Assembly: GCA_950295325.1 (NCBI GenBank)
Contig: OX485809.1
Coordinates: 5,210,001-5,274,000 of the forward strand
Length of the DNA: 64,000 nt
Reading direction: 5' to 3'
Origin: Polytrichum commune
Lineage: Eukaryota > Streptophyta > Polytrichopsida > Polytrichales > Polytrichaceae
Part shown: one piece after another, positions 7,301 to 63,744 of the stretch
Position numbering within the stretch: position 1 is the stretch's first letter
Layout of the letters: each line of letters begins with the position of its first letter
The notes under the pieces: generated by a model
Told to the model about the DNA's origin: nothing
The model's database searches: none
What the model saw: the letters and a program-made list of their open reading frames with translations, nothing else
Position numbers and translations under genes: made by a program

Positions 7301-7361
7301 TTTTCTAGGGCCTCTAATCATCCCTCTATACCGTACAGTACGGACGTGTAGCCAAAGCCTG

Positions 7362-7566
7362 GAAGCCAGAGCCAACCCAAGGGGTTTCACTCGATAGAGT
7401 GAAACCTCAAGGGCCATAAACTTAGCTAGAGCCAGCCCAAGGGGTTTCACTCGATAGAGTGAAACCTCAAGGTCCATAAACTTAGCCAGAGCCAGCCCAA
7501 GGGGTTTCACTCGATAGAGTGAAACCTCAAGGTCCATAAACTTAGCCAGAGCCAGCCCAAGGGGTT
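7362..7566. repeat. Palindrome family 2 array, left part (60-base units)
   Basis: Three near-identical 60-base units each contain a 24-base palindrome (7383-7406, 7443-7466, 7503-7526) with core TTCACTCGATAGAGTGAA, followed by the start of a fourth unit. The fourth unit is cut at 7566 by an LTR-type insertion and resumes at 9750. Because 60 is a multiple of three, the array stays open in several frames and creates a spurious repetitive ORF. Confidence 0.92.
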
Positions 7567-8784
7567 TGTGAGCCCAAAAGGGTGCCCACATTTAGTCTTA
7601 GACCCTTGAAACGTTAGTTGATGCACTTTGAAGTAGCATGTTACTTCACAAAAATATAAAAAGAGTGAAATGTTAGTCTTAGAAGTACCATGTTGTAAGA
7701 GGCTAGGATGTGAGTTGTTATTGTGTTTTTACCTTCGGAAGGATTTGAGTGAATGAGGATAGGTAAGGAGAACTTGGATTGAGTAGTTAGTGAGTAGGCT
7801 AGTACAAATGGATGGAGACAACCAAAGTGACTCAAGAGGCAAGTGCATTCGAATTGGGATGAATGGAGGATCACATGGAGCGCACAAGTGGACCACCTCA
7901 TCATGGCCACTTAATGGGGAAGGCCCAAGGAAGAATGCAAGGTGGAGGATAAGCAAATTCTCAAAGCACCAATCAAATCACGAGTTAAGCATCGTGGTTT
8001 GAATTAAGTGGTGAGCGACGATTTGGGAAAGTAAGGGGAGAAAGTTATGGCGGCGGAAAGCGAAGGAGGCTAAGTTTGGGTTGAAGCATCCCAAGTTTGG
8101 TAAAGTGTGGTAGGTAGAAGGCCAAGGCTAGTTAAATGTTCGAATTAGGATCCTTGTTGATCATTTGAGGGAGGAAGGCTTAGAAGATAGGATTGGCGCC
8201 TACTAAGTAGGAGGAAATCTCAAGGGCTTATCGTGAGCCTTGAGGGTGCTCACCCCCTCAAGCTTACTATATAATCCCTCATTCTTCCCTCACTCATCCT
8301 CTCTTTCCTTTGTGCTCCAAGGCACCCCACGAGTTATAAGTGTGGGTGTGGGAAGCCATATTGGAGCACATGTGTGTGCTTAGTTTTTAGTTTGAGAGCC
8401 AAGGCTTATTAGCCTTGAAGAGGGCTTGACCTCTTGGTAGAATTAGTGTTGACGTGAAGGATTTTAAAGTTAATTCATGATTCCAATTTGTGGTACTTAA
8501 AGTTCATGTTTTGAATACACGTGGTTGCAAGTTCCATGTTTAAGAGTTGAGCACTTGATGTTGTGATGAGTGCAAAAATATACTTGTGTGGATTAGTTAG
8601 TCTTAGTGAAGTTAGGAAATTCTCTCTCCCCCTCTCCTCTCTAGGATTTTAGGATTTTAGGATTAGAGAAGAATTGTGTGATTAGAAAGGGGTTGTTAGT
8701 AGAATTAGGAAAATTAGGTAGGAAGATTAGTTAAGGGCTTGAATAATTAGTGAGGTAGTTGGGGATTACAACTACAAAGTTGTG

Positions 8785-9055
8785 GGTTCATGAAGGAGCT
8801 GGGTTTATGAAGGAGCTGGGTTTATGAAGGAGCTGGGTTTGTTTAGTTAGAAAGTAAAGAGCTGGGTTTATGAAGGAGCTGGGTTTGTTTAGTTAGAAGC
8901 TAAGGAGCTGGGTTCATGAAGGAGCTGGGTTTATGAAGGAGCTGGGTTTGTTTAGTTAGAAGCTAAGAAGCTGGGTTTATGAAGGAGCTGGGTTTATGAA
9001 GGAGCTAGGTTTATGTAATGAGAAAGTAAAGAGATGGGTTCATGAAGGAGCTTAG
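8785..9055. repeat. Tandem array, about 17-base AAGGAGCTGGGTTTATG unit
   Basis: Roughly a dozen copies of a 17-base unit, interspersed with a longer spacer containing TTTAGTTAGAAGCTAAG. It lies inside LTR-type element b. Element c has a different-sequence tandem array (36010-36325) at the corresponding place. Confidence 0.85.
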
Positions 9056-9333
9056 TAGATAGCCTACCTAATTAGCTCATAGACAAGTAGTTAGTTACAT
9101 TATGCTAGTTAGTGTTATGTGTGGCTTTCACAAGTAAATGTATTTGAGATTGACTATAGAGAATAGTGTTTTTTTTTAACACTTGCATCCTCTCTTTAAA
9201 AATAAACCACGTGCACAACTTAATGGAGAATGTGGAGCACTCTCGCGATGGCAAGACAAAGGAAGCAAAGACCAAAGGTGCGAGGGAGAGATTGACATAA
9301 GTCACATAAGTATTTCTTAATACTTAAAGGCTT

Positions 9334-9546
9334 ATGTACGGTATGGAGACACCAAGTGAGACCTCTTATAGTAGCGATACGGAATACACAAGTGATAGTT
9401 CAAGTGGTAGTATAGAGTCAACGGCACGGACTCCATTTAGGAGAGGGATATCCTTAAGGGCTTGTGTAGCTAAAGCAGCCGGATGGACGTTAGAAGCAAA
9501 CAAAGACAAAATAGCACCCGAGCATAAGGAGGTTAAAATAACATAG
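9334..9546 (+). CDS. Small ORF with conserved RGISLRACVAKAAGWTLE peptide (element b)
   Basis: A 70-residue ORF inside LTR-type element b. An acidic, Ser/Thr-rich N-terminal half (residues 1-35) is followed by RGISLRACVAKAAGWTLE. The inverted element c encodes the identical 18 residues at 35630-35685. Over these 18 codons the two copies differ in 15, and every difference is synonymous, so the peptide has evidently been under purifying selection. Upstream, near 9220, element b also has an out-of-phase MENVE-like start matching element c, so this copy is probably rearranged. I do not recognise the peptide. It could be the start of a gag-like protein or an exon of an internal gene. Confidence 0.45.
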   Translation: MYGMETPSETSYSSDTEYTSDSSSGSIESTARTPFRRGISLRACVAKAAGWTLEANKDKIAPEHKEVKIT

Positions 9547-9749
9547 TTAACTTGTGCATTCTCCACATACGTATTGAAATCGTACATTGAGTTGTTAAAA
9601 GTGAAATTCCAGTTAAATCCAAGACCACTTGAAGGGTGAACCTTGCACTATGGACTCATCCAAGTCCAAATCCAATACCGCGGAGGAATGTGAGCCCAAA
9701 CCCACTACTCGGACTACGGACGCTTAAGGGTGGGGGGTTTGGCCTCACA

Positions 9750-10023
9750 GGGTTTCACTCGATAGAGTGAAACCTCAAGGGCCATAAACTTAGCCAGAGT
9801 GAAACCTCCAGGGTTTCACTCGATCGAGTGAAACCCCATGGGCTGGCTATGGCTAAGTTTATGGCCCTTGAGGTTTCACTCTATCGAGTGAAACCCCTTG
9901 GGCTGGCCATTTTACTTACCTTTTTACTTACCCTTTTACTTCCCCTTTACTTACCCAGAGCCGTAACACCACTTAATTATCAGTCAGCCCTTGAAGTTTC
10001 ACTCGATCGAGTGAAACCTCAAG
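9750..10023. repeat. Palindrome family 2 array, right part
   Basis: Palindromes lie at 9751-9774 (one arm change), 9811-9836 (perfect, 26 bases, core TTCACTCGATCGAGTGAA), 9872-9895 (unit in reverse orientation) and 9996-10017 (perfect; extendable to 9990-10023 with one mismatch). The surrounding 60-base unit appears in both orientations here. This part is continuous with 7362-7566 once the LTR-type element is removed. Confidence 0.9.
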
Positions 10024-10224
10024 GGCACTGGCGTCTTCCAGCAGATGGCTCTAGGGTAGGCTTTGTGATATTCAAAATTGCAAATGAATGTCAGTACACT
10101 ACATAAAAGCAGTCTGTATCATTACTACAAACCATATAGTATTGCGAAGTTATTTAGAGCCCATATATTAGGAAAGGATTTCATTGCAACATGTGCTATG
10201 TGAATATAGTGCCAGCCCAATTAG

Positions 10225-10246
10225 CTCTCACTCGATCGAGTGAAAG
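10225..10246. repeat. Palindrome family 2, copy nearest gene A
   Basis: Contains TCACTCGATCGAGTGA (10228-10243), perfectly palindromic, about 150 bases upstream of the gene A start. Its position in the presumed promoter or 5' leader suggests a possible regulatory or recognition site; that is inference. Confidence 0.75.
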
Positions 10247-10391
10247 TTCATTGGCAGGCTGCTTGTGCTGGCAACCAACATAGTGCGAGTGCAAGCTCTA
10301 ATATGATTAAATAGCAGATTGTACGTGAAGCTATATGAAGGCCAAGTTGTAGCCCTGACTGCGCAAGTGTTTTTGTGCAGATTTGCGGAGA

Positions 10392-13300
10392 ATGGATGCG
10401 GAATCATCTACTTCAGAGGAGGTGGTTTTCTAAACTTAGATGTTTAATGTTGTATGTTGGAATATGTTTTATTAATGATAAGTGTGATGTGCAGGGGTCA
10501 TCCCTTTCAGACGCAATATTCTCGGAAGATGAAACTGTTCCAGTTGAGGATATTGACCCCAATTGCAGTGGACTTCATAGGGATGATTGGGTGAACAAAC
10601 CTGTTATGCTTGTGAACGAACGTGGACAGAATATGGCAAAAGGAATTTGCCGTAATGTAAACCCAATTGACTGCGTGGAAGACAAATGTTTGGGACCTGA
10701 TCACGTTGGTGTCCTCATAATGGAGCCTATTGATGGCATGATGGACATGGGGGCCATGTTTGCTTTGAGGGCCTGGCCAATTTCTCGTGTTTTTCACGAT
10801 GGATGCACTCTGGCACATCACATCCTAGTTAGTGGCCAGAGATTGCGGACACAAACTAAGATGCTGGAGAAGCGAAGGAAGGAAGGGAAGAGGGCGTATG
10901 ATACATCCCGGATATCAGAGCGTCGTAAGCCAACAAAAAATCCCAAATACTGACCAATGCAAGCATACAACAACTATCTGCAATTCTGTGTTGTGATCGC
11001 GAGTGCCTCAGATTCTTTCCCAGAGATGAGGCATTCGCTCTTCGAACTGAATTTTATGATTGCTCCACAAGGATGAGGCATGCAAAACGTCTTGAGGTCC
11101 ACGGACAAGTACATCCACTTCCGGGGGCGTGTACGAATGTCGTAACACTAAGTGGACGTGATATTTGCCTCATCGCATGGAGGCACATATTTGTAATATC
11201 AAAAACCGCGTTCTACATAAATCGACAAGAATTCAATTGTGGGGTGCGACCACGAGACCATGGAAACTTGAACACCAAACGGTATCGTGTGTCCACACAG
11301 CAAGCCACTGCCACTCTTTCCAACCTCTTAGAGGACAAAGCGGACATGATGCCCCATAAATCCCGCACTTTGCCTAACGGCACTCGAGTAGTGGAGATGG
11401 TTTTGCCTCGCGGAACAAAATGGAAGAAATTTTTGGAGACAATCAACCAGGTTAGTATGCTCATGATGTTCCATTTATTCCGTTTTCAATGTTAGTCTGA
11501 GCCTCACAAATCAGAACACCTGGATTGAGGCAATGTCTAAATGTTGCATGTGGTATGATTTTCAGGTGAATGAAAAATGTGGGTTGCAACCAATTTCTCT
11601 TTCTACTCTGAGCCAAATAAGACAGAATTATTTTAAGCACTACGTGACAAAAAGAGCAGGGGATAATTTTGCTCGCTGTGGGAAATGCGATTCACTTATG
11701 GCTATTATTCAACAACATGTTAAAGGTTCCGCCGCACACACCGGGTTTTCGAAGCAGTTGGAGAAGCACCAGGCACAGCATGAATCCGCTCGTAATGCTT
11801 ACCGCTGTATGAGAGCGTTGTCTATTGAGCATCCCCGCAAGGTTTTGACCATCATTCACGACAAAATGGACCATGGCAAAACTGCATCTCCATGCTTTGC
11901 TAACAAGAACAAAGACACTGATATGTTCACGAAACTACCACTTTCAGTGACAGGCATGATGGCTCATGGCCATGGAGATGAGAGATATGCTCATTATGCA
12001 TTGGATTTGTATCCTGGTGATTGCAACCATACTGTGGGCTCATTTGCGAGGCTTCTTCGCGATTTGGAAAAGCCCCCGGCTTCATCATCTCGCATGCTAT
12101 TCCATGGTGCGGGTCGGTCACCGCTTTATCGTGCTGTTCTTCATGGGAGTGATGTATGTTTGTCAGGATTACGACCTCCACCCAGTGAGCCTATTCCAGC
12201 TGTCTTGCTTCCACCCGTTTTGCATGTTCAACTCGATAATTGTTGGAAGGACAACAAGTGTAGATATGTGAAGGCATTTTGGTCCATGCTCACGGCCAAA
12301 GGTATATTCACGGAGGTCCACGTGTCTTACCTTTTAGTTGGTCATACACATGATGACATTGATGCTTCATTTGGTAGATGGAGTATGGACTTGCGCGAAC
12401 ATGATTACCCCACTATCCCCTTGCTCATGAAATCATACATGGACATGGAGAAGGTCCCTATCATCCCACATATGATAGAGGAGCTTCCAGATTGGAGGGC
12501 TTTTGTTAGTGAGTACATTCCTGATGGCCAAGACAAACTCATTGGCCATACGAAAGCCCAACAATTCAAATTTGTTGTACGGGATGATGGTTGGCCCGTC
12601 ATGCATTACAAGGTGCTTAGTACGCATGATGAATGGTTGCCCAAGGATGGCATATTGATGTGGAAATCCAACATAAAGGGGGAGCCAGTTTTCCCACCTG
12701 GGGAACCTTACCCTGCTAAACCTCGAGAAATGGCAAAACTGGACGATGTTCTTGTTGGGTTGCAAGGGTTTGTTGACTACTGGCAATCTATATGTGACCA
12801 TGACATGACCAGAGCATATAGGGGCTCACAAACACATCTTTTACAATACTGGACTGGGGTACTGGAGGCATTACGGGCACCCCTCACAAATGTGTACACT
12901 GCGGGATTGGCACTCCAAGAGGGATTCTGGCCATCCTCCCGAATCGAATTGGACGCACATCCTTTCATGAATATTGGTGAACTTCGTGAGGAGCACCAAC
13001 CAGATGACCATTATGTGGGCCCCTCTAACCTTCGACCTGCACCTGCTTTCCGCATTGCCGACAACGTGCATGAGGGGCATTTCCTCATTCTTCGACCCCA
13101 AGATCAAGACATTGATAGACCCATTTGGGTGTGCCGAGCTTTGTGTCCACCAAACTTGAACGTCACTGGGGACCATCCCCGTCAGATTCTGGTACAGTGG
13201 TTCACTCCCACTTCAACTGCTAGAGACATAACAAGGAAATACCATGGTTGGGACTCCAACAAGAACTTCAAGTGGAAAGCCGATTCGAAATATTCCATCC

Positions 13301-13551
13301 CCGACTGGCAACCAATTGACTGCATCTTGGCACATGAAGATGTTGAGCCCCTTAAGATTACTATTCCACCAGAGCAGATTGAATTTGCCAAAGACAACCT
13401 TCGTCGTTGTTCTGAGCAAGAGCGCGGAGGGATGGCGGTTGAGGAGGACGTTGATCTGCCGAGTGCGCGACGAGTAGGTCGTGGACGTGGAACTGGAGGT
13501 CGTGGCCGTGCAACTGGTAGACGGGGAGCTCGGGGCAACCCTTCCTCGTAA
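10392..13551 (+). CDS. Gene A: DUF7869-like transposase-like protein, frameshifted
   Basis: Paralogue of gene B (49437-52533), followable over nearly the full length. Likely exons are 10392-10421, 10495-11450 and 11566-13551; the last junction (GT at 11451, AG at 11565) is phase 0. The start ATG at 10392 (MDAES...) parallels the MDSN start of gene B. A frameshift lies near 10925-10963, perhaps at the A6 run 10935-10940: homology leaves the first frame at about 10930 and resumes in another frame with an FFPRDE-containing segment. The exon-3 core has HDKMDH (near 11860), LDNC (near 12232) and GHTHDDID (near 12340). These acidic positions resemble the RNase-H-like triad of DUF7869 proteins, which suggests DNA transposition. 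The C-terminus is Arg/Gly-rich. The product would be about 990 residues. The frameshift may be a real lesion or a sequencing error. Confidence 0.72.
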
Positions 13552-16369
13552 TGCGAGACTGGAAAACCCACATCGTATTCGTCACACAATGATTCATGAT
13601 TAGATGTGATTTCCTTGACAATGTGAGACACCACATCAAATACTCCGGTGATTGGTACTAATTTTTTTGGGGTGGTTCCTCGATGGGAGACCATCATGGC
13701 TCCTCTCGGACATGTGGGTGCAATTTTTGTTGATTTCAACACTATGACCAGCTAAATGGAACCCCATTGTGGGCACGGTATACCCGTGCAACTCTTAATG
13801 AAAACCACCAGCATTATAGAGGGCGGGTTCATTTATCTAATGTGAAGTGTTGTTATTTGAACTTTGAAGTATGTAATGCAAGGTCTGTCCTTTGTATTTG
13901 GATGTAGTTGGCATGACTTGTATTAATGAGCCCTCGGTCTGTCACTGTGCACACCACAAACACCCCTTCTATCACGTTTGCAAACCACACTACCCTGGCG
14001 CGACCACACACCGTTCCCACGTAGCCACAAAATGTGTTCTTGTTCCCCCGTTCCACAGTGCGCACATGCGTTCCCATAGAGCGTTCCCAACGTTCCCCTA
14101 GAGAGTTCCCACGTTCCCATATAGAGTTCCCACGTTCCCATATAGAGTTCCCACGTTCCCGTAGAGTTTTTATGCGTTCGCTCTAACGTTCCCATACATA
14201 GGTTCCCACGTGCGCATCTGGCATTCACATGGTCTAACTTCATTGTTCCCACGTTCCCACAAGCTAGTTGCATGTTCCTGGGAGCAATAAATATGTTCCC
14301 ATGTCCCCAAAATGTAAAAAAATCTTCACTTTGGGACTCCCAAAAGTCCCGAAATGTTTAATATAGTGTTACATGTACTTGAGTGACACCACCAAGCCCC
14401 TTGTGACTTGGCAACCAGTGCTTCCCCAATATGACTCTCAACACTCAATCTTTATTCAAGGGGCATCGAGCTTCAAGCATTCAAAAATGCTCCACACCCT
14501 TGTGGTACCTGTTACATTCAGTCACCCAAAACGTCATCAACCCTAACTTGAAGTCACTAACCTAAGATGTTAAATTACTTGATATTGAAGCAACACCAAT
14601 GAAACATTGGCTTGCCCATGTCCATCCATTCAAGTCCACCACTCATCCAGTCAATCCATGCAAATAAATTCCTAATCACACCTTTTCTTTATTATGTTTA
14701 GACCACAAGTATTAACAAATACTCTAGTCACACACCCACACAAGGAAAATAAAGACTCCAATCTTGTCTATGCTTTAATAAATCCTAATCTAATCTCCAC
14801 CCTCTAATTCTACCACTACTTCTCGTTCACTTTGCAAATGGCTAACACAGAAGCACAACCAGTGATTGCAATTCAATGACAGGCTTCAACTCATTGAGGC
14901 CTAACCTAATCATTACCGCTCTCCCCTACCTCGACAGTAAACTTCTTCAAACAACCCATCAACCTTTACAAACAGCAGCCCCCTTGCTGGAATCGCGAAC
15001 TCCTTCTTACTGCCCCCTTTTCAGCTTGTGGCAACATGAATTCTTCCCTCGCCCTTTGGCTATGGGCCCTTGCCTTGGCTGCTTCACATTACTACCTCTT
15101 GCTCCTAGTTAAACTAAGAGACCAAAAATTTGGCTCACACAACCCACTAGTGGGATGTGGATATAATTTCATCATAATATTCTTTCTAAAGAAAACTAAG
15201 TGTGTACAAAAGAGAACTTAGAAATGCAAGAAGAAGGACACACAATTTTGGCAAAGAGGAGAAGAAGGAAGAAGAATTTGAAGTTTTCTAGCACGAAGCA
15301 ATTACATAGGGCCAAAATGGAACGACAAATGGATAGGGTCACTTTATGTAACATCGAAGACACTGCACGCGTATTAGAATTTCCTTCAATAAAAGAAAAT
15401 AAGAATGTTGAAATCGAGACGCAAGATAGCAAATAACCCCTCATTTTTGGAAATGATGATGACAAACAAGTGAGCAACACTACCAACGATATGTTTGACG
15501 TAGAACAAAAAGAAGTATGTACTTCCATTTACAATGCACCAGTAAATCCTTCATGTTTTTATGTATACATGAGGCAATTTTCCAATTGATATCACCTCAT
15601 AAACTTCTAAAGTACCTAAGCATAGAAATTGTGTTTTTTACTCAAAATTTGATTGTACGGAATTTGAAAACAAAAAACCACATTAAAAAAAATGAGAATG
15701 TTGTCAATAAAAACATTGTATGCAGATTAGTGGCTACTACGTCTAAAGCAATGTGATAATGCAACATGCAAACCTTAACCCTAAAAATCAGAAGGGATTT
15801 TTCCCCCATTTTGAACCAATTCTTTGCGGGGAATTTTTTATGTTCTAATCCATTATCAATGGGTTTTTCTGTTTCGATCCACTGGCGTGGGAGATTTTTC
15901 TTCCAATTTGATTTATATTCTTGAGGGGATTGGAAGGACGAAATTTTTTTCTAAAAATAGACATCATTTTGACCAAAATATTTAAGGGAAATTAAACGTT
16001 TTGGAACGGTTTTAAGGAAAAAATACCATTTCATGAGGGTTCTACACAGGAAGCACACGGAATATAAAGGGAGCTGAACACTCCAAGTAGAGTGCCAATG
16101 GAGAAGCCAAGCGGAAGAACAATGGCCAGCGCGTTTGCTATGGCAAACGAGGTCCTTCATTAAACGGCAAACAAACCACCCACATCTGCCAGTGTGTACA
16201 AATCGTCTAATAGCAATGATGAAGTGACGGTTGGCATGGACGTAAAGTTGGCAACGCCATCAACAAACTCTTCTCTAGAACAACATGTAAATTTCTTTTT
16301 TATTTTATTTATAAGTTTTTTTCAAATTTCAGTGGTTATAATCATTTTGTAAATGCTTTGAAACAAAAA
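13552..16369. other. Intergenic; short tandem repeat near 14068-14170
   Basis: No gene recognised. Near 14068-14170 a 21-base unit (CGTTCCCATATAGAGTTCCCA) is tandemly repeated about four times, with degenerate GTTCCC-rich flanks to about 14280. The antisense and short ORFs here have no family resemblance. Confidence 0.6.
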
Positions 16370-17240
16370 TTTGGAATAGGGGTTTCGATACTGAAATCCC
16401 TATTCCAAACATTTCCTTTAAAAAAACACTTATCATTCACCAATTTTATATTTATGCCATAGCCTCTATCTTCATTTTCTTGTATACTTATTTTTTCAAA
16501 GAAAGTTGTGGAATAAGGGTTTCGGTACCGAAACGCCTATTCCACAATTTTTTAATTTTTTTAATTTTTTGACCATTGCAGCCCCTAGGTCATAGGGACA
16601 AAAACAAACCAATAGAACCCACCTCCCATGGAGGCATAAATCCTCATGCTACAACACGGCCCGCCGTGTTAAGCAACTGGATAACGGGCTCCCAGTTATG
16701 CCGGTATCATGTACGGGCGTTATTTATTTATTTTTCCACAACTTTTTTTAAAACAATATACTTCTCAATAAATAATTTCATGTTGACGCCATAGCCAGTA
16801 TCCTCATTTTTATTCATATTTATTTTTGAAAGAAAGTTGTAAAATAGGGGTTTTGGTACCAAAACCCCTATTCAACAACTTTTTTTTAAACAATATATTC
16901 ATTTTGTTTTCTATGTTCATTTTTGAATGAACGTTGTGGATTCGGGGTTTCGGTACCAAAACCCCTATTCCACAATTTTTCTTCAAACAATATACTTCTG
17001 AATATATAATTTCATGTTGACGCCATAACTGGTGTCCTTATTTTTTTTATGTTTATTTTTAAAAGAAAGTTGTGGAATAGGGGTTTCGGTACTGAAATGC
17101 CTATTCCACAACTTTTCTTCAAACAATGTACTTTTCGGTAAATAATTTTATGTTGATACCATAGTCGGTATTCTCATTTTTTTCCATATTCATTCTTAAA
17201 AGAAAGTTGTGGAATAGTCCTATTCCACAACTTTCTTTTA
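16370..17240. repeat. Palindrome family 3 array
   Basis: Six long palindromes at variable spacing (about 97-330 bases): 16370-16409, 16506-16547, 16834-16881, 16934-16975, 17066-17115 and 17197-17240. The inner core is GGGTTTCGGTACCGAAACCC and the outer arms are TTGTGGAATAGG-like. One copy has TTTTGGTACCAAAA in place of TTTCGGTACCGAAA, so both arms changed together. The last copy keeps perfect 21-base outer arms but lacks the inner module. Spacer sequence (a 'catgttgacgccatagc' block and T-rich runs) is also repeated. The array directly precedes the methyltransferase-like relic. Confidence 0.92.
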
Positions 17241-23304: not shown

Positions 23305-23335
<31 letters not shown>

Positions 23336-28533: not shown

Positions 28534-28573
28534 AAAGAGCATCAAACCAACATGTGCTGGTTTGATGCTCTTT
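28534..28573. repeat. Hairpin-forming inverted repeat
   Basis: Perfect 16-base arms (AAAGAGCATCAAACCA at 28534-28549 and its complement at 28558-28573) enclose an 8-base spacer. No neighbouring gene explains it. It could be a microRNA-like or fold-back transposon remnant. Confidence 0.85.
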
Positions 28574-34990: not shown

Positions 34991-35026
34991 TGGCGCAGCA
35001 ACTGCAGCTGGCGGTGGTGGGGACGC

Positions 35027-52400: not shown

Positions 52401-52533
52401 TTGGTATGAAATCATCCTCTGCATTGGCGACACCAATTGTAGTTTCATGTTCCATAACACCTTCAAATTCGCTAGCATAGCTTGACGCTTCCGAAGAGAA
52501 CTCGAATGCATTATCTCGGACGTTGGAATCCAT
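49437..52533 (-). CDS. Gene B: DUF7869-like transposase-like protein, intact
   Basis: Two coding exons (52533-51129 and 50959-49437) joined by a 169-base GT/AG intron in phase 1 encode 975 residues without stops. The start MDSNVRDN was chosen over an upstream in-frame ATG (52593) because it parallels gene A. Residues 1-60 are acidic and Ser-rich. A Cys-containing segment (CCAKMCCQLFPRD, about 210-225) follows, then a second Cys pair (FARCSACEKYKG) near 380. The core has IIHDKMDHAKT (about 435), VQLDNCAKDNK (about 562) and VGHTHDDIDASFGRWS (about 597). Order and spacing resemble the RNase-H-like, DDE-type core of DUF7869 proteins; catalytic function is inference. The C-terminus is acidic. Palindrome family 1 lies immediately upstream and in the intron. 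Its divergent neighbour is the ParB-methyltransferase gene. Confidence 0.8.
51057..51076. repeat. Palindrome in the intron of gene B
   Basis: TTACGGATGTACATCCGTAA is a perfect 20-base palindrome. It keeps the outer family 1 arms (TTACGGA...TCCGTAA) with an altered but still symmetric centre, and lies inside the single coding intron of gene B. Confidence 0.9.
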
Positions 52534-52674
52534 GGCCACTACAAGTGACCCACATGAAGAGTATGTCAAAATATCCCATTCAATAAATGTCATGGATAGT
52601 CCTAACGCTTATTGTCAATGAAACACAATGTCAACAATAGTGGATTTCATGGCCTGGAAACAAAGACACATTGG

Positions 52675-53156
52675 TATACGAACGCGCGTACGTATATCTC
52701 CATGTAACAACATTATCAGTGCAAGCACGCGCATACATATGTCTTTATTTATTCATAGTCGGCGGAAAGGTCCAGACAACAAAAACATGACAGTTTTATG
52801 GGCGCGCACCCGTAAATCTCTTCGTGGTCAAAGAGGTCAATATCATGCGCAAATGTTTTCGCAAACTATACAACATAGGTATACGGACGTGCGTCCGCAA
52901 ACATCCGAATGTCAAAAGTCAGTGTTGTGCAAGACACACAGAGGTTTAGGAAACCAAGATGTCCAGGTGTCAGGTTCCTACTGTGTATTATGAATGTCAA
53001 AATATTATACTATGACACATAGGGTGATGTAAGCTTAGGGTTTAGGGATCTTATACCTCCATTGACCGTACAGTCTCAATGTAATATTCTACATGGCACA
53101 TAGTGAAAAGTATGGAACCAAAGGTTTGCAGGTTTACGGATGCGCGTCCGTAAACC
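52675..53156. repeat. Palindrome family 1, degenerate copies upstream of gene B
   Basis: Copies at 52675-52696 (GAACGC centre, one mismatch), 52795-52816 (GGGCGC centre, two CpG-type changes), 52884-52897 (CGGACGTGCGTCCG) and 53131-53156 (one C-to-T change). They begin about 140 bases upstream of the gene B ATG and may lie in its promoter or 5' leader. Confidence 0.8.
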
Positions 53157-53314
53157 TCTCTGTACCTCATTACTAGCACAAATAGGTTTAGGTTACTGGA
53201 CGTGAGTCAAAAAAATTTCATGACAATACAGTCTCGTTGGTATACTATACATGGCAAGTGGTCATGATGTCAGCTCAGGTGCAATACCGAACAATGGAAC
53301 AAAAAGGTGCAAAA

Positions 53315-53718
53315 GTTTACAGACGCGCGTCCGTAAACCTCAATGTAGATGAAATAGGTCAAGTATAATTCTCACTGCAATAGATATCCAATCAAGCAAG
53401 AGGTTAAAGGTTTACGGACGCGCGTCCATAAACCTTAATGTACATGAAATAGCTGAAGTATAATTCTCACAACAATAGATATCCAATCAAGCAAGAGGTT
53501 TAAGGTTTACGGACGCGCGTCCGTAAACCTCAATGTAAATGAAATAACTCAAGTATAATTCTCACAGAAATACATATCCAATCAAGCAAGAGGTTTAAGG
53601 TTTACGGACGCGCGTCCGTAAACCTCAATGTACATGAAATAGCTCAAGTGCAATTCTCACAGAAATAGATATCCAACCAAGCAAGAGGTTTAAGGTTTAC
53701 GGACGCACGTCCGTAAAC
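53315..53718. repeat. Palindrome family 1 array with exact 95-base period
   Basis: Five copies start at 53315, 53410, 53505, 53600 and 53695, exactly 95 bases apart. Each is a 24-base palindrome with core TTACGGACGCGCGTCCGTAA. The 71-base spacers ('caatgtacatgaaat...ccaatcaagcaagagg') are themselves near-identical. One-arm changes are at CpG positions (to CA or TG). Confidence 0.95.
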
Positions 53719-56700
53719 CTCCGTGATTTGCGGCGCCATAATAGGACCATTTCACCAGGAACGATACTTGCCATAAACAAAAATCAATCACTATAAGGAT
53801 CCAGACAGTGCAATCCACATAAAATTGGCTCCACTAATGGGTTTATGGCTTGGAATTTAGTGTTTAGGGTATAAAAGGTCCATTGCAATAGGATCTGTAC
53901 CTGCACGAAATAAACATCCAGAACACTACAAGGGTCCAAGCAGCGCAACCCACATCTGAGATGCAAAAAGAGTCCCTTGGTGGAGGGGTGTCCCCTTAAG
54001 TACTGATCGTTTCCCTTGGATCCGTTTTCCAACATAGGATACTAGCCACCATCTACGTCCTATAAATAAAAACCTAACATTACTACATTCCGTGTGCCAG
54101 CCTTACAATGGAATGTGTATTCATAGTGGACAACATGCATAGACGATGAGTCCACATAATGACAAAGCAAAAGGCATCTACGTATTTATGGTGGACAACA
54201 AAGAAAATAGGCTAATAATATATGAGCATTGAACATTGTTGAGGGGTGGTTTATAATATTGAAGTACCTAATATTGAGAGGTCATTGTAGAACTAGGAGA
54301 CAGAAAATTATAGTGTCGTGTGAAACATCAACCACAACAACAACAATAGTACATGGAGTATAAAAATACGTGTCATTCAAAATTAAACTAGCATCTATTT
54401 TATTGTTTTGCATACGATGTAATGATATTCACTCCAATATCATGTTATCTCCTCTCATCTAGCATTTAAACTAGTAATTACATTTGCCACCACCCTACCA
54501 TCCAACCCGTTTAATTTACCCACTTTTACACACCTATACATAATTATACTAATACGTACACAAACTTTGAGCGCCTAGATGCCATGAAAATAGCACATCT
54601 ATTGTCATAGGCACTATGGGTTGCTTTAAAATCAATATTCTCAATTTCCTCTCTTAACTTTAGGGCCCCCTTCAATACATCAACATTTATTTCAAAAAAA
54701 ATAATACTAGCATTCTTAATGTACTATACGTGAGACAAAAAACAATTTTTAGTACCCCATGTACATTATCTACAATATTGACTCAAACAATAGCAGTTGT
54801 TGTTCTAAGTAACATTATGAGCCCAACAAAGCATAATGGAGAGAAGGGGAGGGTAGGGTATCCAAATATTATAAAGGCAAGCAATTTTAAGTTGGTGACA
54901 GAAGGGGGATACTCTCATTAGTTCATACGTGGTACCCTAAATCCTAAACCCTAAACCCTAAACCCTAAACCCTAAACACTATACCCTATACCCTATACCC
55001 TATACCCTATAACCGCCCACCCCTGAACAAACACAACGACATACGGTACGCATGGTTAACTGAATAACTCCCAATACATGTGTAGCCTTAAGTGGAAGTA
55101 ATTCAAAACTATATGACTACCTTTAAATTTTGTAAAATAAAACCATAAACATTTCAAATGTGAAGCAAATTTAGGGGTAACCTTACCTTTCATTTTTTAA
55201 AATCTTTCTTTGGCTTTAAACCATTTGCTTTAAACATATACTTTTGATGAAAGGTTTTGAAGATCGTATATTGGTATTCTATAATCGAGTCCTAAACACA
55301 ACTCACCACCGAAAGAAAACTCCAAATATAAACAAGTTTGCTACTACTTATAAGCGATAATACAAGCTGAGGCCTATGTGTGGAAGGATTGGATGGATCC
55401 GAAAGGTTGTTTAATGTACAAGAGGGATGTACATTCAACACATACCCATGCATTTTGTTTTAATACAAGCTTAGACCTATGTGTGGAGGGATTGAATTAA
55501 TCCGTAATGTTGTTTAAGGTATTACAAGCATATGAATTCTCCCCATATCTCGATGTTTCGGTTTTGTTAATTGCGTTTCACAACTTATTGCGATAATTGA
55601 GGGATTCACAAGTATTTCTTGGCAAAGTTTCATGAGAATTTGTGGCCAATTGGTATATTGCCCCAATTGCATTTGAATCCCACCTTTGAGAAGAAAAAGA
55701 ATTCTTATACTGAAGTTAATCAACAAGACATCCTTTTATTGAATATTATTACTATTCTCGAAATATAGAGTCCCCTCCATAGCTCGGGGGGTGCACTGTA
55801 CTAAACATGTACGAGTTATACGTGAGTGCACAGGAGGGGTATTGATTTGGACCTTGCCGTATTGCATATACATATGGTATACATGTTATAATTTATAGTT
55901 ACGTACATATATGGAAGGCCTTTAAAAAGTATAGAATAATTGTACTTGTATGGTATTGTTACTATACTATATATCATAAGTGTTCATATTGGATAAGTTT
56001 TCATAAGGTTTGGTTTGTTGGGAGAGTTTATAGGATGCGGAGGAAGTTTGGTAATCGTTGGGTGGAGTATAGGGATCCATTTGACTTGATGGACCGTCCA
56101 TCAAACGTGGAGATTGGTTTATGTTGGTATCAAAAGGGGCTAACAACAAGTGGACATATGATCTTATTGATCATTCCATGGTAGACTTCGAGACAATAAT
56201 TGCATTTGTATACTTATGTTAATGACTCTCGGGGGGGGGGGGGGGGGCAGTCATTGGTTGGAGTAGCAATATACGTGCAAACAAATGATAGGGTATTTTA
56301 AAAACATGGGGGCAAAAAATTATAAATGGACTTAAGAGTAATATAGGGTATCAAAAATGGCACTGGACATCTTTAAAGTAGTATAGGGTATGGAATAATT
56401 GGTAATTTGGAATTATAAGTAATGCAAGCCATTTTTCTATTAACCCAAAGTAGAAATTTATATAATGATAGCATGTGAAAAAAAAAAAAAATTGAAAGTA
56501 ATACCCCCCTATATCCTTATTTTTTTAACACACTGCCCCCCCGAGTAATGACTAATATATATGAATGGATGTTTTTTTGTGTATACATATTGTTGCTTGT
56601 ATATTTATTGTTGCAATTGTATGTGTATTACTTCATTTCACAAAAAATCACTTGTATATATTAGGGGGTTTTTAGAGTATGCAGTGAACGCACGTGATTC

Positions 56701-57300
56701 TAGGTTTTAATGAAAGGTGCTCCCCCACTCTCCATAGAGGCCACACTAGAAATTGTAGTTAGTTTCTCTCATTGTTTGGAGTTCCAAAATGATATTATTA
56801 TTATTATTGATGTCATTTAATTGTTGACAATGACATAATAATTTACTCAACCTCACACCCTAATATAATTTCCTAAAATAATGAATACTTTCTAGAGCTC
56901 GTATGAATATTTCACTCATTATCAAAAGTGAAGAGAAGAGGCAACGAGATGGCTCATTTTATATTTAGAGTGACATTTAGTGTGACTTTTAACTTGCCTT
57001 AGCATAAACATAAGATGTTATTATGACATAATATGATAATAAAATCACCAAACTAAGTATAAATTAAACCCCTATTTCAATACCAAATATAGACCAGTAG
57101 GGTGATGCCACGTAAGGGTATAGGCCGGCGATTGGGCGCGACGTTTGGGGTAGGGACACGTGGAGGCACGCCATTGTTTTAGGGTTCCAAGTACTCCAGC
57201 ACCCTTTCGCCCTCGCTCTTCGTGCTTTTCCTTCCTTCTCTATCATCTCTTCCTTCCGTTCCTTCTACTGTTGCTCTTGCTTCTCTTGCTTTAGGGTTAT
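53719..57300. other. Intergenic between the divergent genes
   Basis: No gene recognised. A (CCCTAAA)n tract followed by (CCCTATA)n lies at 54940-55012. A run of 17 G lies at 56231-56247. A block at 56491-56534 matches 6046-6115 in shortened form. No family 1 palindromes are seen between about 53720 and 57688. Confidence 0.55.
54940..55012. repeat. Interstitial telomere-like tract with CCCTATA variant
   Basis: Five or so CCCTAAA units run directly into four CCCTATA units. The first type is the plant telomere repeat; the second is a locally expanded variant. Confidence 0.88.
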
Positions 57301-57329
57301 AGGGTTTCAAAGTACACCAGCTCCCTTTT

Positions 57330-57660
57330 GCCCTCCTCTTCGTGCTTTTGCTTCCTTCTCTTGCAACTCTTGTTTATCTTGTTTATCTTGTTTCTCTTGC
57401 TCATCTGCTCTTGCTTCTCTTGCTCATTTGCTCATCTTCTCTTGCTCATCTGCTCTTGCTCATCTTCTCTTGCTCATCTACTCTTCTTCTCTTGCTCATC
57501 TTCTCTTGCTCAACTTCTCATCTTCTCTTGCTCATCTGCTCATCTTCTTTTGCTTCTTTTGCTTCTCTTCACTTGTTTCTCTTGCTTCTTACCCTTATCT
57601 TCACTTTCTTCTCTCTCTTCTCTTGCTTCCCTTGCTGGTCTTGCTTCTCTTTCCTCACAA
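57330..57660. repeat. Pyrimidine-rich CTTGCTCATCTT repeats, probable 5' leader
   Basis: A C/T-rich low-complexity tract of CTTGCTCATCT/TTCTCTTGC units. The Leu/Ser-rich ORFs it creates in three frames are not genes. It lies just upstream of splice-like donors that lead to the ParB-methyltransferase gene, so it may be a transcribed leader. Confidence 0.6.
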
Positions 57661-57688
57661 TGCAAAACTCATTCTTATTGGTCAATTG

Positions 57689-57702
57689 CTGACGCGCGTC
57701 AG
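57689..57702. repeat. Short family 1 variant CTGACGCGCGTCAG
   Basis: A perfect 14-base palindrome keeping the GACGCGCGTC centre but with CT...AG outer bases. It is the first family 1-type site on the ParB-methyltransferase side, a few bases before a GTAAGT donor-like site (near 57709). Confidence 0.75.
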
Positions 57703-58094
57703 AGCTAGAGTAAGTTCTCCTTGTTTGCTGCTCATTTGCTTATTAGCTCATTAGCTCATTAGTAAGTTTTGCTTGCTGCTTGCTTGCTTGCTGCTCATTA
57801 GATCATTAGGATGCTCATTGTTGCTTGCTACTGCTCATTAGGTTGTTTTCAGTTGTTGATCTCAGTTGTTGCAAGGGTAATTAGTGTTTCAGATGTTGCT
57901 CATTAGGGTTTCAGTTGTAGCTTCACCATGTAGTTCATTATATTTTTTGCATACAAATCAATAGTTTCCTTTCACTTGTGTTGCATGAATCTGATTTATG
58001 AGCAACTTTTTTGAGTAGTTCTCAATGTTGAATCATGCATGTGCACATTGAATTACTAGAGGTTTCTGACCTCAATTTTATTGTTCATTTGCAG

Positions 58095-58437
58095 TTGGTA
58101 TTAGCTGCAGCAGGAGCAGCTAGTTGTGGTTTAGGAGCAAACACTCTAGAAAGGTAAGTTTTTTAGAACATTGCAATTGCATTTTGTATGATTGCAATTT
58201 TGGGTTGTTGTGGTTTAGGGCTTAAGGTTAGCATGACAGAATGTGAGATTCCAGTTTCAAGGAATTCTGAATTTGTTTAGTACTTTGTCTATGGCTACAT
58301 TCTAAGAATCATTTAGTTATGGACATGTCAGTGTTCTGAAAGTGCCTTATGTTGTCAATCTGCAGTGCAGTGTTTGCTATTGCAGTGAAGTAAAATTGCA
58401 TTCTTATTTGGAGGGCAAAACCATATTGGACGACAAG
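58095..58437 (+). other. Probable non-coding 5' exons of the ParB-methyltransferase gene
   Basis: Two segments have good splice borders: 58095-58153 (TTGCAG before, GTAAGT after) and 58366-58437 (CTGCAG before, GTAAAG after). Joined, they hold stops and no long frame, so they are probably 5' untranslated exons. The following intron would run 58438-59305, ending TTTGCAG directly before the ATG. Confidence 0.4.
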
Positions 58438-58465
58438 GTAAAGTCCCGAAAAACACGGAGCATTA

Positions 58466-58950
58466 ATGAAAACATTGGAATACGCAAACATTACAATAGC
58501 CTTTATAATCCTCAAAGTTTACGGACGCGCGTCCGTAAACTTTGTGGATCTTTGTGTAGGTGAGAGACAAGCCTCTCAAACAACATATTACGCAAACGAA
58601 GCCAAATATTGTAATATTAGGCATATTAAAATAGCCTTTATAATACTCAAAGTTTACGGACGCGCGTCCGTAAACTTTGTGGATCTTTGTGTAGGTGAGA
58701 AACAAGACTCTCAAACCGCATATTACGCAAACGAAGCCAAATATTGTAATATTAGGCATATTAAAATAACCTTTATAATACTCAAAGTTTACGGACGCGC
58801 GTCCGTAAACTTTGTGGATCTTTGGGTAGGTGAGAGACAAGCCTCTCAAACAATATATTACGCAAACGAAGCCAAATATTGTAATATTAGGCATATTAAA
58901 ATAGCCTTTATAATACTCAAAGTTTACGGACGCGCGTCCGTAAACTTTGT
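58466..58950. repeat. Palindrome family 1 array with exact 135-base period
   Basis: Four perfect 32-base palindromes at 58513-58544, 58648-58679, 58783-58814 and 58918-58949, exactly 135 bases apart, with core TTACGGACGCGCGTCCGTAA and extended arms CAAAG...CTTTG. Spacers are near-identical. As 135 is 45 codons, long repetitive ORFs open on both strands; these are artefacts. The array lies in the presumed last 5' intron of the ParB-methyltransferase gene. Confidence 0.95.
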
Positions 58951-59105
58951 GGATCTTTGTGTAGGTGAGAAACAAGACTCTCAAAAATATATGTAGGTGA
59001 GAAACAAGACTCTCAAAAAATGTAGGTGTGAAACAAGACTCTCAAAAAAATATTAACCGTAACTTGAATACATTGATATTTACCACCATACTATCTTTGC
59101 GAAGT

Positions 59106-59125
59106 TTACGGACGCGCGTCCGTAA
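59106..59125. repeat. Palindrome family 1, single copy
   Basis: A perfect copy of TTACGGACGCGCGTCCGTAA, about 180 bases before the ATG at 59306. Confidence 0.92.
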
Positions 59126-59226
59126 CTTATAGAGATATTTGAGTATATGATATACGCGTTATGCGTATTTGGAAGAAATGTATCTTTTCATTTGGATCCA
59201 AAAATATAATTGAGACAATTTGGAAA

Positions 59227-59252
59227 ACTTTACGAACGCGCGTTCGTAAAGT
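59227..59252. repeat. Palindrome family 1 variant with mirrored change
   Basis: A perfect 26-base palindrome with core TTACGAACGCGCGTTCGTAA. Relative to the standard core, a G-to-A change on one arm is matched by C-to-T on the other. It lies 54 bases before the ParB-methyltransferase ATG. Confidence 0.93.
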
Positions 59253-59305
59253 ATGATCTATATCTTTTGCCAAGAATTCTAACTTATCTATCTTATCATT
59301 TGCAG

Positions 59306-62300
59306 ATGGCATCTAAAAAGAGACATGCAATTGAGATGTTCGCAGAAGCTCTCATTCCTCCGCTACCAGAAGCCATCAAAGACATAAGTCCCAACGACCA
59401 TTACAAGCCACAAGATGAAATTGTGGATAATTGGACAGTATTGGTAGAAAAGGACGAGAAAGAAATATTTGTGCTTAGATTTGCATATCAAATGAAGACG
59501 GACATAGATGAAGTTGAGAAGTGGATAAAGCTTAAATCGTGGACAGTAGAGTGTGCAGTGGCACAAGGGGATTATGTAGTAATAGACCTTGAGAAGAAAG
59601 AAGATCGGGTCACTTTCATTTTGCACGAATCCTACCACCCCTTCAACAAAAATGAGTGTGAGAATGCTAGTACAGATGCGGCTTGCTTCAATCTCCAGAC
59701 GGAGTTCCAAGACTATGCATGCAATGCACCTTGGACGGGTAAGCGGCTTGGACGACTCTTGAACAATGTAACAAGAGTAAATGGAGCCTTGCTAGAGGCC
59801 AGAAAGGGGAAAGATAAGAAAAAACAAGTCGTTCCTGAACGACCTAAGCGTGTGCCTAAACCAGTGCCGGAATCCTCAAGGCCCTCGCAGAGTGGTGCAT
59901 CAAGAGGGAGCAGACAGGCGAGTAAACGCTCTCACTCGCAGATGGACTCTGGACTAACAGAGGGTCCGGATGTCAGCTCTACACTGACTGTCGCTCCACT
60001 CCTCAAAAAGGGTCAACGCCCTGACGCCGAACTCTCAACAAAAATATTCCAAGAGTTCGATGAGAAGACGAAGGGATGCTGGCCCCTTGGCAGGTATTTT
60101 ACTTTCGAAGTAGACGTCTACAAATGCCACAAGGGCACCGAAAGTATGAATACCAGAGCAAAAGAAGAAAGCGGTGTATGGTGGCAAATGAACAACATCA
60201 TGAACAACCCCAAGTTTGACAGGCAAACCATTTGTGTGACACCAAAGGATCCTATCGTTGAAGTCAACGAAAAAAATTGGCCGATTCTCAAGAATGGAGA
60301 GTTCTACATTGTCGACGGCCAACATAGTGTAATGGCTGCAAAAGCTCTCCTTGAAGACGACGAGTGGAAAAGCCCATTAAAGGAGACAATCCGATATTGG
60401 AAGGCATTCGTCGTGCATTCCAAGGACTCGAACCAACTCATAGCAATATCTGCCTTCATGAACCAGGGGAATAAAGTGAGGCAGTTCGAGGCTTCATGGG
60501 CAGCCAACATCGTGGCTGGGAGGACCTTGTGGGTGGAGCACGAATGTCCCCCAAAAGAAAGACATAATGCTGTCGTGAAGAACCCAAAATGGCAAGTATG
60601 TTACTCAAATAGATTTACGGACGTGCGTCCGTAAATGTGGCCCTTCTCCTCCCACTGCTTCAAATATTTGAATTTAATTTGTACTGAATTCAATGTTCTG
60701 ATTTCTTGCAATTCGCGCCTCTTGCAGACATTCAGCAATGCCATATTGACAAAGTTCTCGAGTATAGACATGAAGACAAGCGGCATGAAAACAGTGCATG
60801 AATTAAAAGGCGAACTCAAGCTCATCACTGCAACAGAAGAGACGTGGTCAATATGGTTGCGACTTTTCGATGCCCACAACAACGGCGACCTTGTCAATCC
60901 AGATACGGAGAACACCTACAAGAGCGACTCAAAAGTTAAGGTACCACCAATCCTGCGAGAGTTCTTTCGTCCCCTCCAAGGATTGATGGACTCGGAGCTG
61001 TACAGGGCAGCAGAACACATTCTTCTAGAAACTCCTAGAAGAACTCTGCCCTATCCCAAAATCTTTCTGAAGCGGCCGAAGCACATGAAGCCATCCACGT
61101 ACCACATTAAGGAATGGTGCGATTACAGAAAGAAGAAGACCATGGCTGTAAGGGAGATTAGCAAATTGCTACCCACCCACAACCTCATTAATAGTGATGG
61201 TAAGATCGTGTGGGAGAATTGGAGGAAGCTGAAGGGTGAATACCACATCAATGGCGTCTCAATGCGAGCTTTGATAAGAGGGGCATCATCCTTCCTTGCC
61301 CAACGATCCAGAAGGAACGAAAAGAAGGGATCCATCGACGAGAGGGAGGCAGGGTTGTATGTTCACTTTCTCGATAGGAAAAAGAACGCGAAATTTGGAG
61401 GGTTTGCAAGATTCTGCACGGTCGCAAAGGGCATGAAGTTCGGCGCATGGGACACCCATGCTTCAAGAGCCTCTGTGAGAGATGACCCCAGGGGTTGCCC
61501 TTTCGCCATTTTTGATTTTCGTGCAATTCCCGGAGCATGGAAGCAAGACGTTGCGGGAGCACCCTTCTACGAGCCCTTCTTAAAAGCCTTCAAGAGCTAT
61601 CGCTCGCCTGCCCTCTTCGAGCCTCATGTGTGGTTATGGATTGTAGAGCAAGAGAGGTCCACATCCATTGTCCATCTGTACACATCAACGATGGACCTCG
61701 AATACGATATGTACCACAGCACCTACATCCCAGCGAAGACAGAAGGGATCACTTTCATTCAAGAGGCAAGGGGGGTGAAGCAAGTGGGAGCTGTGCAGCT
61801 TTATTTCTTAACACGCAAGTCTTCCCCAACTGGGCGATTGCCCATTAAACCACACGAGGTGTTCAGGAAAGTCTATTCGTTGCCGCCACCACATCCCAAG
61901 GAGCTTGTTGAGGAGACAATGCATGCAATCTATCCGGCGTTCGAGCTCCGGATGGACTTTTATATAGGGGTCTTGAAGGCTTTAACTGTCATGAGTGAGA
62001 CAGTTTACAACGTCTTCGGAGGCACGAAGTTTATGTATGCAGCACTGGTGAGTATTTGTTTGTCTTTCAACCCACCTATCTTTTGCATAGTTATTTTACG
62101 GACGCGCGTCCGTAAAAACCCAGTATCAGGTGCATGTGAATTTTACGACCGTGCGTCCGTAAAATTGTCCAACTTTTGAGTGGTGGTTTTACGGACGCGC
62201 GTCCGTATAACGTGTTGACATCTAGCCTCATTTATATGCAATCACCACTATTGTTCTTATCTAATTTTCTTGTTATGGTCCAGATGCTTGGCTTGCAGGT

Positions 62301-63714
62301 GAATTCTTTTGTGCAAGATTCCGACTACGATGACGCCCATACTCACAGGGTAATGGCCTCCAAAATGGATATCCAGGACATCATGGACATCCTTACACCC
62401 CATCTTGTTGTGCCTCTTTCTTCTAGAGAAGAGGCAATGCCCGGAATGGAGACAGACCCTGAAGAGGACCGAGATCCCAGTTCCCCAAGAGCGCAACCCT
62501 CCACACAGGAGCCTTTACACGGCCTTGTTCGCGACCCAATTAATCCAAGTGCTTTCCTGCTGGGAACAGACGACACGGATGCGCAGGAGGCACGCGTGAA
62601 CTTCACTCCGATAAGGGTCCCTCATACCCCTGTTCTCTCACCTTTTGGGACTCCCACCTCTCGAGTTGGATTTCCCTCAACTGCGGGTCCATCTCGTGCT
62701 CCAGGAGTTATGGCCGAGAAGGATGTGGACCTTGCGGCAGAAGGCGGATGCACCGCTTCATCTGGAGGGGGATCTCAACATTCAGATCTACCCCCTATGG
62801 AGGGGAGGGATGTGCTGGAGTTGATATTGAGGCCTGATATCTCTCTATATCGTGAGAGTCGACGAAAGAGGAACAAGACGCCATACAACGAATACCCTGA
62901 AGGCGCGGTCTTGGAGCTCTCCGATGAAGACGAGGATGAGATTAGGATTCACAATGCCATCTCTGCCTTGCCTACGGAACCTGGCAAGGTGAAGAAAGAG
63001 CCGATGTCAGTGTCCGAATTGGACGAGAAGATGGAGAGGCGAATGAAGGAAGAGCTTGACCAACGGCTTCGAGAAGCTAACGAGGAGCACGCCAAAAAGA
63101 TGGCCGCCATCCAAGCTGAGATGGAGCAAGCTAGGTTGGAGTCTGCTCGAAGGCACGCCGATCTCATGGCCCAAAATCAACAGTTCTTGGCCCAAAGTCA
63201 ACAATTTATGAGCCTGATGCAGAGCTTGCAGGCAAGACCCCCTGTAGTCTATACAGCTCCCGATGCCGTCATGTCTATGCCCCCCACTCTCATGCGGCCT
63301 CCGTCTAGTAGCCATGCGGTGTATATACCCGAGCATGCTTATCCAGCCCCCGCGTTGATTGTCCCGCCCTCTCCCCTTGTTGTCGCCACTCCAGAGGAGC
63401 CCTCCTCTCATCCTACAGGAGTGGAGGAGATACCGGCACGTGACATGGCGGGTGCCGCCGAGACAGATGTCAATGAAGGCAATGCCCCCATCGGCGATGA
63501 AGATGTACATATGCGGGGCAGCCAAGACTCCACAGATGAGGATCAGCCTTACGTGGATACTCAAGGGTCGCAAGCGGCTGGAGACACCTTGTTGGTGGTC
63601 GAAGATCTGGACAATTTTGCGGACGCGCGTCCGGATCCTGTGCCCATGACGGGGCCAGGTGAGGGAGGCACTGCTGGCGCGGACCTCGCCCTTGAAGAGG
63701 TAATCAACCTTTGA
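59306..63714 (+). CDS. ParB-like (DGQH) and DNA-methyltransferase-like fusion protein
   Basis: Three phase-0 exons (59306-60595, 60728-62047, 62284-63714) encode 1346 residues without stops. The ATG follows a TTTGCAG acceptor. Residues 1-170 are unassigned; 170-265 is a basic, Ser/Pro-rich linker. Residues 280-430 contain GEFYIVDGQHSVMAAKAL (DGQH at 337-340), resembling the DG(Q)HR motif of ParB-type nuclease domains. Exon 2 ends with VYNVFGGTKFMYAAL (FGGT at 860-863) and exon 3 continues MLGLQV...QDSDYDD. Together these resemble the AdoMet-binding motif I that closes permuted N6/N4 DNA methyltransferases. A DPPY motif is not evident, so catalysis is doubtful. A coiled coil (about 1115-1189) and an acidic tail follow. 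ParB-methyltransferase fusions are known from phages and bacteria. All introns carry family 1 palindromes. The second acceptor at 62298 is an alternative. Confidence 0.7.
60613..60636. repeat. Palindrome family 1 in coding intron 1
   Basis: A 24-base palindrome with one central CpG-to-TpG change (core GGACGTGCGTCC), inside intron 60596-60727 of the ParB-methyltransferase gene, 17 bases after the donor. Confidence 0.9.
62094..62210. repeat. Three family 1 palindromes in coding intron 2
   Basis: Copies at 62094-62117 (perfect), 62139-62166 (imperfect centre GACCGTGCGTC, arms AATTTTACG/CGTAAAATT) and 62187-62210 (one outer mismatch), within intron 62048-62283. Confidence 0.9.
63620..63633. repeat. 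Family 1 core inside coding exon 3
   Basis: CGGACGCGCGTCCG, perfectly palindromic, is read as part of codons for FADARPD (about residue 1316). It is the only copy found inside coding sequence. Confidence 0.85.
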
Positions 63715-63732
63715 GCATGCCTCCCACGTTAC

Positions 63733-63744
63733 GGACGCGCGTCC
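63733..63744. repeat. Family 1 core just after the stop codon
   Basis: GGACGCGCGTCC lies 19 bases after the ParB-methyltransferase stop, with a preceding TTAC arm but no matching right arm. It would fall in the 3' untranslated region. The remaining bases to 64000 show no gene. Confidence 0.8.

Follow-up and report, generated by a model that had tools for sequence, protein, structure and literature searches.

Subfamily-specific palindrome arrays in large DNA transposons of Polytrichum commune that carry DUF7869 and ParB-like genes

The 64-kb stretch of the Polytrichum commune genome analysed here, referred to as the window (contig OX485809.1, C7:5210001-5274000), contains the right half of one large DNA transposon and most of another, elements A and B, which have three genes in common and carry arrays of perfect palindromes at their genes (Table 1). 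Element A begins about 14.5 kb to the left of the window start and its right inverted end (...AATATAGTGTT) closes at 14370; over 22 positions the left end is an inverted copy of the right end without a mismatch, and ACAT flanks both ends of this single copy. The inverted ends of element B are about 28 bp long, the left one being AACACTATATTCGTTAATTGGAGACTTT and the right one differing from it by one base, and the first 11 end bases are common to elements A and B. Target duplications of 4 bp (TACA, CACT, ATGG, TTGT, TTTA) were found in all five element B copies with both ends, two further loci without a comparable left end being outside this count. Given their terminal inverted repeats and target-site duplications, both elements have the end structure by which DNA transposons are recognised. 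The window was also compared with six loci on contig C1 which were chosen from clusters of the palindromes of element B, and the sequenced context is biased accordingly: the whole 17.3-kb unit is present in two of them (97.7 and 99.3% identity), the right 12.8 kb in one (99%), and the remaining three are more diverged. A copy of gene B (C7:5154916-5156436, 100% identity) and a relative of gene A (C7:5178832-5180709, 90%) were observed 30-55 kb to the left of the window, which indicates that elements of this group cluster in this region.

The order of the genes is the same in both elements, and consists of an end, an outward DUF7869 gene, an array, a long spacer, a further array, a ParB-like gene, a phosphatase gene, and the other end, with the exon ends read from the open reading frames. 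The NLI/SCP-type HAD phosphatase profile PF03031 is above its cut-off of 21.8 bits in both cases, with 39.8 bits in A and 49.7 bits in B. Between A and B, identity is 30% for the phosphatase, 52-53% for DUF7869, and 24-27%, by exon, for the ParB-like gene, and between B and one of the C1 copies, C1f, it is 75-78% for the ParB-like gene and 93% for DUF7869, so that the ParB-like gene diverges faster in both comparisons. The first-pass annotation had called this gene a ParB-methyltransferase, and the methyltransferase part of that name was abandoned for want of profile support, as no Pfam methyltransferase was found in its three open reading frames or its first two exons, and methyltransferase profiles had no match in exon 2 of the five ParB-like members, with none in NCBIfam either. 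Weak profile matches to YEATS (E 0.018) and to the Iota toxin component Ib (E 0.01-0.06) were taken as chance.

For DUF7869, an AlphaFold model built from two sequences reached a mean pLDDT of 31, and a profile search for relatives in the PDB returned none. The MULE transposase and VANC had no Pfam match in the open reading frames scanned, a comparison made by profile only, and searches for relatives in viral contigs and in bacterial and archaeal genomes gave nothing useful. Literature searches returned no paper on DUF7869, none linking ParB, transposable element, methyltransferase, and Physcomitrium, and none joining the NLI interacting factor with a transposase and a terminal inverted repeat.

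With AT runs excluded, 16 perfect palindromes of at least 18 bp are found in the window, against 0.4 expected per 64 kb under a dinucleotide null, which rules out a chance origin. Inside five element copies, 54 palindromes of at least 18 bp lie in 88,504 bases, against seven in 92,936 bases of element flanks, a control from which two stretches with second DUF7869 genes were left out, and six of these seven form one further array. Element B contains 21 sites of family 1 (up to 4 mismatches), of which 20 lie outside the exons and one inside, the modelled exons making up 45%; of the two upstream arrays, that of gene B lies about 0.5 kb from the nearest coding start and that of the ParB-like gene 54 bp. 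Family 2, the corresponding palindrome of element A, is represented by 13 sites before the ParB-like gene, one in an intron of this gene, and eight upstream of gene A, and thus extends to the left of the window, both before and within the ParB-like gene. When sites with up to 3 mismatches are counted, the five copies leave 3.9-4.4 kb free of them at the left end and 2.3-3.9 kb at the right. Each site has 2 to 5 CG, in all families. The first-pass annotation had placed family 2 before gene A, which matches DUF7869, and family 1 before gene B and the ParB-like gene, and these positions stand, as arrays of complete transposons; the layout it described was too narrow, given that the sites also occur in introns and upstream of the ParB-like gene of element A.

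Table 1. Coordinates of the elements, their genes, and the palindromes, numbered from the first base of the window (negative positions lie to its left)
Feature	Position	Strand	Remarks
Element A, right half	1..14370		full extent -14456 to 14370, 28.8 kb; inverted ends and ACAT on both sides
NLI/SCP-type HAD phosphatase, third gene of element A	-13135 to -12290		PF03031
Family 2 palindromes, three copies	7385..7524		one mismatch at centre, 60 bp apart; before gene A
Family 2 palindromes (GTTTCACTCGATCGAGTGAAAC), five copies	9753..10245		upstream of gene A
Gene A, DUF7869, several exons	10375..13551	+	PF25273, E 7.1e-40
Family 3 palindromes (GTTTCGGTACCGAAAC, longer inverted flanks)	16378..17230 (approx.)		~136-bp units; outside element A
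Element B	48780..64000, on to 66106 past the window		17.3 kb; inverted ends, TACA on both sides, C1 copies
Gene B, DUF7869, at least two exons	49437..52593	-	PF25273, E 5.6e-41
Family 1 variant TTACGGATGTACATCCGTAA	51057..51076		gene B intron; both sides changed symmetrically
Family 1 array, six sites with 0-1 mismatch	53133..53717		upstream of gene B; 95-bp unit in part
Family 1 array, six sites, four in 135-bp unit	58513..59252		upstream of ParB-like gene
ParB-like (DGQHS) gene, element B	59306..63714	+	exons 59306-60595, 60728-62047, 62296-63714; homologue in element A
Family 1 sites in two introns of the ParB-like gene	60614, 62095, 62142, 62188 (span 60614..62209)
Two partial family 1 sites, 4 mismatches	63616..63749		one in last exon of ParB-like gene, the other just 3' of the gene
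NLI/SCP-type HAD phosphatase, third gene of element B	64025-64804		just past the window; PF03031

In the genome searched (407.8 Mb, 64 contigs), family 1 has 2,695 sites (up to 2 mismatches), family 2 has 287 (up to 1), and family 3 has 89 (up to 2), and the reversed control patterns of the three families have zero sites each. The exact family 2 sites on contig C1 form two clusters, each of them 1.43 kb upstream of a copy of gene A (both copies at 97% identity), and no exact site is found upstream of any of the 11 relatives of gene A at 81-85% identity on this contig, among the 71 of 2,328 candidates that were scored. In the listed part of contig C2, family 2 lies 1.55 kb from two copies of gene A, one of which could account for a third group of sites as its second array. 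Exact family 1 sites are found upstream of all five gene-B matches (at least 93% identity) in the listed C1 span, where 85 of 1,866 candidates were scored, at a distance of 1.9-2.4 kb in four cases and 17.8 kb in one, the left part of which has seemingly been displaced. When a broader list of DUF7869 matches (150 of 1,491 candidates) is taken over the same span, family 1 lies upstream of one of eight, and that one is of the B type. The family 1 core is also perfect in elements whose ParB-like exons share only 75-88% protein identity. Taken together, the counts support the association of each palindrome, for families 1 and 2, with one DUF7869 subfamily, exact sites on C1 being absent beside the sister subfamilies scored, and the unlinked scatter over the genome that the first-pass annotation had set against its own proposal is rejected for both families.

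From the layout of elements A and B it was predicted blind, in a single trial, that a DUF7869 gene of another type would have an array some 2-3 kb upstream, and the 1.4-kb stretch between 1.9 and 3.3 kb upstream of this gene was found to contain eleven copies of TTTGGGTCGATCGACCCAAA or its one-base variants, 78 bp apart. This palindrome, family 5, has 9,456 sites in the genome (up to 1 mismatch), and is also present before the second DUF7869 gene of the locus C1b; two of the five DUF7869 matches listed for the C1 span have it, in exact form, at most 4 kb upstream (at 2.4 and 3.9 kb). At C1:36945001-36949893, a second DUF7869 element adjoins the C1b copy and closes with the same end, AACGAATATAGTGTT; family 5 is found upstream. 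Family 4 consists of a single GTTTACGAACGATCGTTCGTAA that precedes, in the locus C1a, the second DUF7869 gene, which is 85-87% identical to B, and one copy is thin evidence for a family.

On the other hand, family 3, whose array had been described as preceding a methyltransferase-like relic, does not follow this pattern. The array itself is present, and the relic was not confirmed, given that the element profiles and exons gave nothing significant at 14.4-30 kb of the window; over the genome the family forms arrays spaced at about 136 bp, and of the 22 clusters listed, two have a DUF7869 match from the lists no more than 10 kb away, the broader of these lists covering 150 of 1,491 candidates. 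With no significant homology in this region and a weak co-location, a third element of the same group was rejected. Family 6 (TGTTTCGGGCCCGAAACA, in six copies at intervals of about 250 bp, C1:37237713-37240000) lies just past the C1f element, and its array resembles family 3 in form. The earlier proposal that each palindrome co-evolves with its own gene thus finds support in families 1 and 2 and, beyond them, in new families, more weakly in the case of family 5, but not in family 3.

Neither can the families be regarded as unrelated, as was initially supposed, since they begin with GTTT and mostly end with AAAC, and share longer parts in pairs, with GTTTNNNTCGATCGANNNAAAC being common to families 2 and 5, TTACGRACG to families 1 and 4, and GTTTCGG..CCGAAAC to families 3 and 6. 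This common form fits a single ancestral site, which may have diversified later. Gene B and the C1a copy, which are close relatives, bear similar palindromes; the DUF7869 copy of C1b (65% identity with A, 76% with B) is closer to B than to A, which means that palindrome form does not simply track DUF7869 kinship. Within family 1, 116 distinct sites from seven loci (up to 6 mismatches) include 43 pairs of positions in which both sides have changed, and the two changes are complementary in 31 of these, against about three expected if the sides were independent, a count which is inflated by copies of one site and comes down to about five separate events when these are merged by eye. The symmetry continues into the variable flanks, once over 56 bp, so that hairpin-templated mutation may add to selection.

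Given all this, we see about an even chance that the palindromes of families 1 and 2, together with those of family 5 and probably family 4, are element-specific cis sites bound by a protein of the element itself, for self-activation or anti-silencing in the manner of VANC. As the sites are symmetric, an element-coded protein would presumably bind them symmetrically, as a dimer, and their location at gene starts and in introns, far from the ends, points to the control of the element's genes, with the expression or the chromatin state of the element as the most likely target, rather than to cutting. The likeliest binder would be the ParB-like protein, given that the binder should differ by subfamily and that the ParB-like gene, besides changing faster, is accompanied in both A and B by an array and intron sites of its own, and the likeliest role would be a sequence-specific one, of self-activation or of protection from silencing; dimer, binder, and role are all read from sequence patterns. 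The presence of a private palindrome tag in each element, and of other tags in its relatives, suggests a lock-and-key form of self-recognition, in which the sister subfamilies may have switched both key and lock. A more elaborate version, which we hold to be very doubtful, would have a ParB-type clamp loaded at element-specific parS-like palindromes, from which it spreads for kilobases and so keeps the element open; the clamp and the palindrome would switch specificity together to found new subfamilies, and the phosphatase, of the type acting on the C-terminal domain (CTD) of Pol II, would be a partner.

A number of observations weigh against the main reading. The name of the ParB-like protein comes from the motif DGQHS or NGQHT, the ParB profile has no match up to E 10 in any of the five members, and DUF6551 matches two of the five, weakly, at E 0.12. 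The family 2 comparison on C1 was made with exact sites, and sites with one mismatch may be present beside the copies at 81-85% identity. No listed gene is near one family 2 group on C2, at 23.20 Mb, or near two family 1 clusters on C1, at 25.42 and 25.98 Mb, and no exact family 5 site lies upstream of three of the five listed DUF7869 matches, one of which is of the same 502-aa type.

It is also possible, if unlikely, that the palindromes are the sites of a DUF7869 transposase, or of a TNPA-like helper, which assembles the transposition complex, as the arrays are found upstream of DUF7869 in A, in B, and in the blind case, the type of palindrome tracks the DUF7869 subfamily, and element proteins that bind arrays of short sites are known from En/Spm. 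However, the sites avoid the end regions, by at least 2.3-4.4 kb, and are also found within introns and where the second gene begins, at least 10 kb from the nearer end in element A. The CG dinucleotides of the sites, and an FGG motif in the second gene that could, by eye, be a worn methyltransferase motif I, would suit a DNA-modifying enzyme that marks the DNA of its own element, although the failure of the methyltransferase profiles to match, and of a DPPY-type catalytic motif to appear by eye, make this clearly unlikely.

Two further explanations were weighed. Many of the sites lie in tandem units of 57-136 bp, and the symmetry reaches the variable flanks, so that tandem duplication could have spread a palindrome that hairpin-templated repair then kept symmetric, with no protein taking part, and yet the same core is found in different units and at single intron sites, identical where the flanks vary, and neither the placement by subfamily nor that outside the exons would be expected of passive arrays, which we therefore consider very unlikely. 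The palindromes might work instead as RNA hairpins in introns and leader sequences, given that the intron sites, and perhaps some of the upstream sites, would be transcribed, but this is extremely improbable, as a scan of the window with Rfam at gathering scores gave no match and the arrays reach upstream of the coding starts, beyond established transcription.

A working precedent for binding by an element protein is provided by the VANC anti-silencing proteins of the VANDAL transposons (PMC5735166, PMC10398659, in the portions available). In Arabidopsis, VANDAL elements carry motif repeats in their non-coding parts, the motif differs between related families, and a co-evolution of protein and motif has been proposed (PMC5735166, in the portion available). 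The likeness lies in the family-specific repeats of non-coding parts, where 20 of the 21 sites in element B fall; the VANDALs, on the other hand, are MULEs with motifs of 8-9 bp, whereas the palindromes here have 16-24 bp, the duplications 4 bp, and the elements carry DUF7869, ParB-like, and phosphatase genes, with binding and anti-silencing being conjectural here.

In En/Spm (CACTA) elements, the repeats bound by TNPA are subterminal, and the Chapaev group, which is related to En/Spm, has a 4-bp duplication. The elements described here resemble these groups in the many short sites per element, in the CACTA contained in their ends (AACACTATATT), and, in the case of Chapaev, in the 4-bp duplication. 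Unlike those of En/Spm, however, the sites are internal, no nearer to an end than 2.3 kb in any of the five copies, two extra A precede the CACTA, and the comparison concerns ends and layout, rather than kinship between DUF7869 and a transposase. The Sola2 group of Sola-type transposons also has 4-bp duplications (PMC3627910, in the portion available). The short inverted ends are a further likeness to Sola, but the duplications found here are not only of A/T (CACT, ATGG), and this comparison also rests on the ends, not on transposase kinship. An array of palindromes adjoining a gene with a ParB-like motif recalls the bacterial ParB-parS system, although the ParB profile does not match, the centres of the palindromes are longer, and the setting is a eukaryotic transposon; the half-site GTTTCAC of family 2 is the same as what we take to be the parS half-site, a lead only. 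In the parts of the literature available on transposon-encoded anti-silencing with palindromes in plants, only work on a fungal TET transposon was found.

If the proposed self-recognition is true, it would add to the known cases in which plant transposons have evolved recognition codes of their own, apparently in a different group of transposons, and one in which the elements also bear a CTD-type phosphatase. Long palindromes are easy to count, and a single genome that contains several subfamilies and thousands of such sites makes the joint change of protein and site specificity directly testable.

Finally, the window also contains AAACCCT-type repeats and intron-bearing genes, in keeping with a plant genome. 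At 32312-35026, on the minus strand, a pair of reading frames looks, by eye, like the relic of a hAT-type transposase, with nothing significant in Pfam for the two open reading frames scanned. Two similar cysteine-rich reading frames of secreted appearance are found at 44020-44535 and 47220-47630, and these resemble what we take to be STIG1-type plant proteins.

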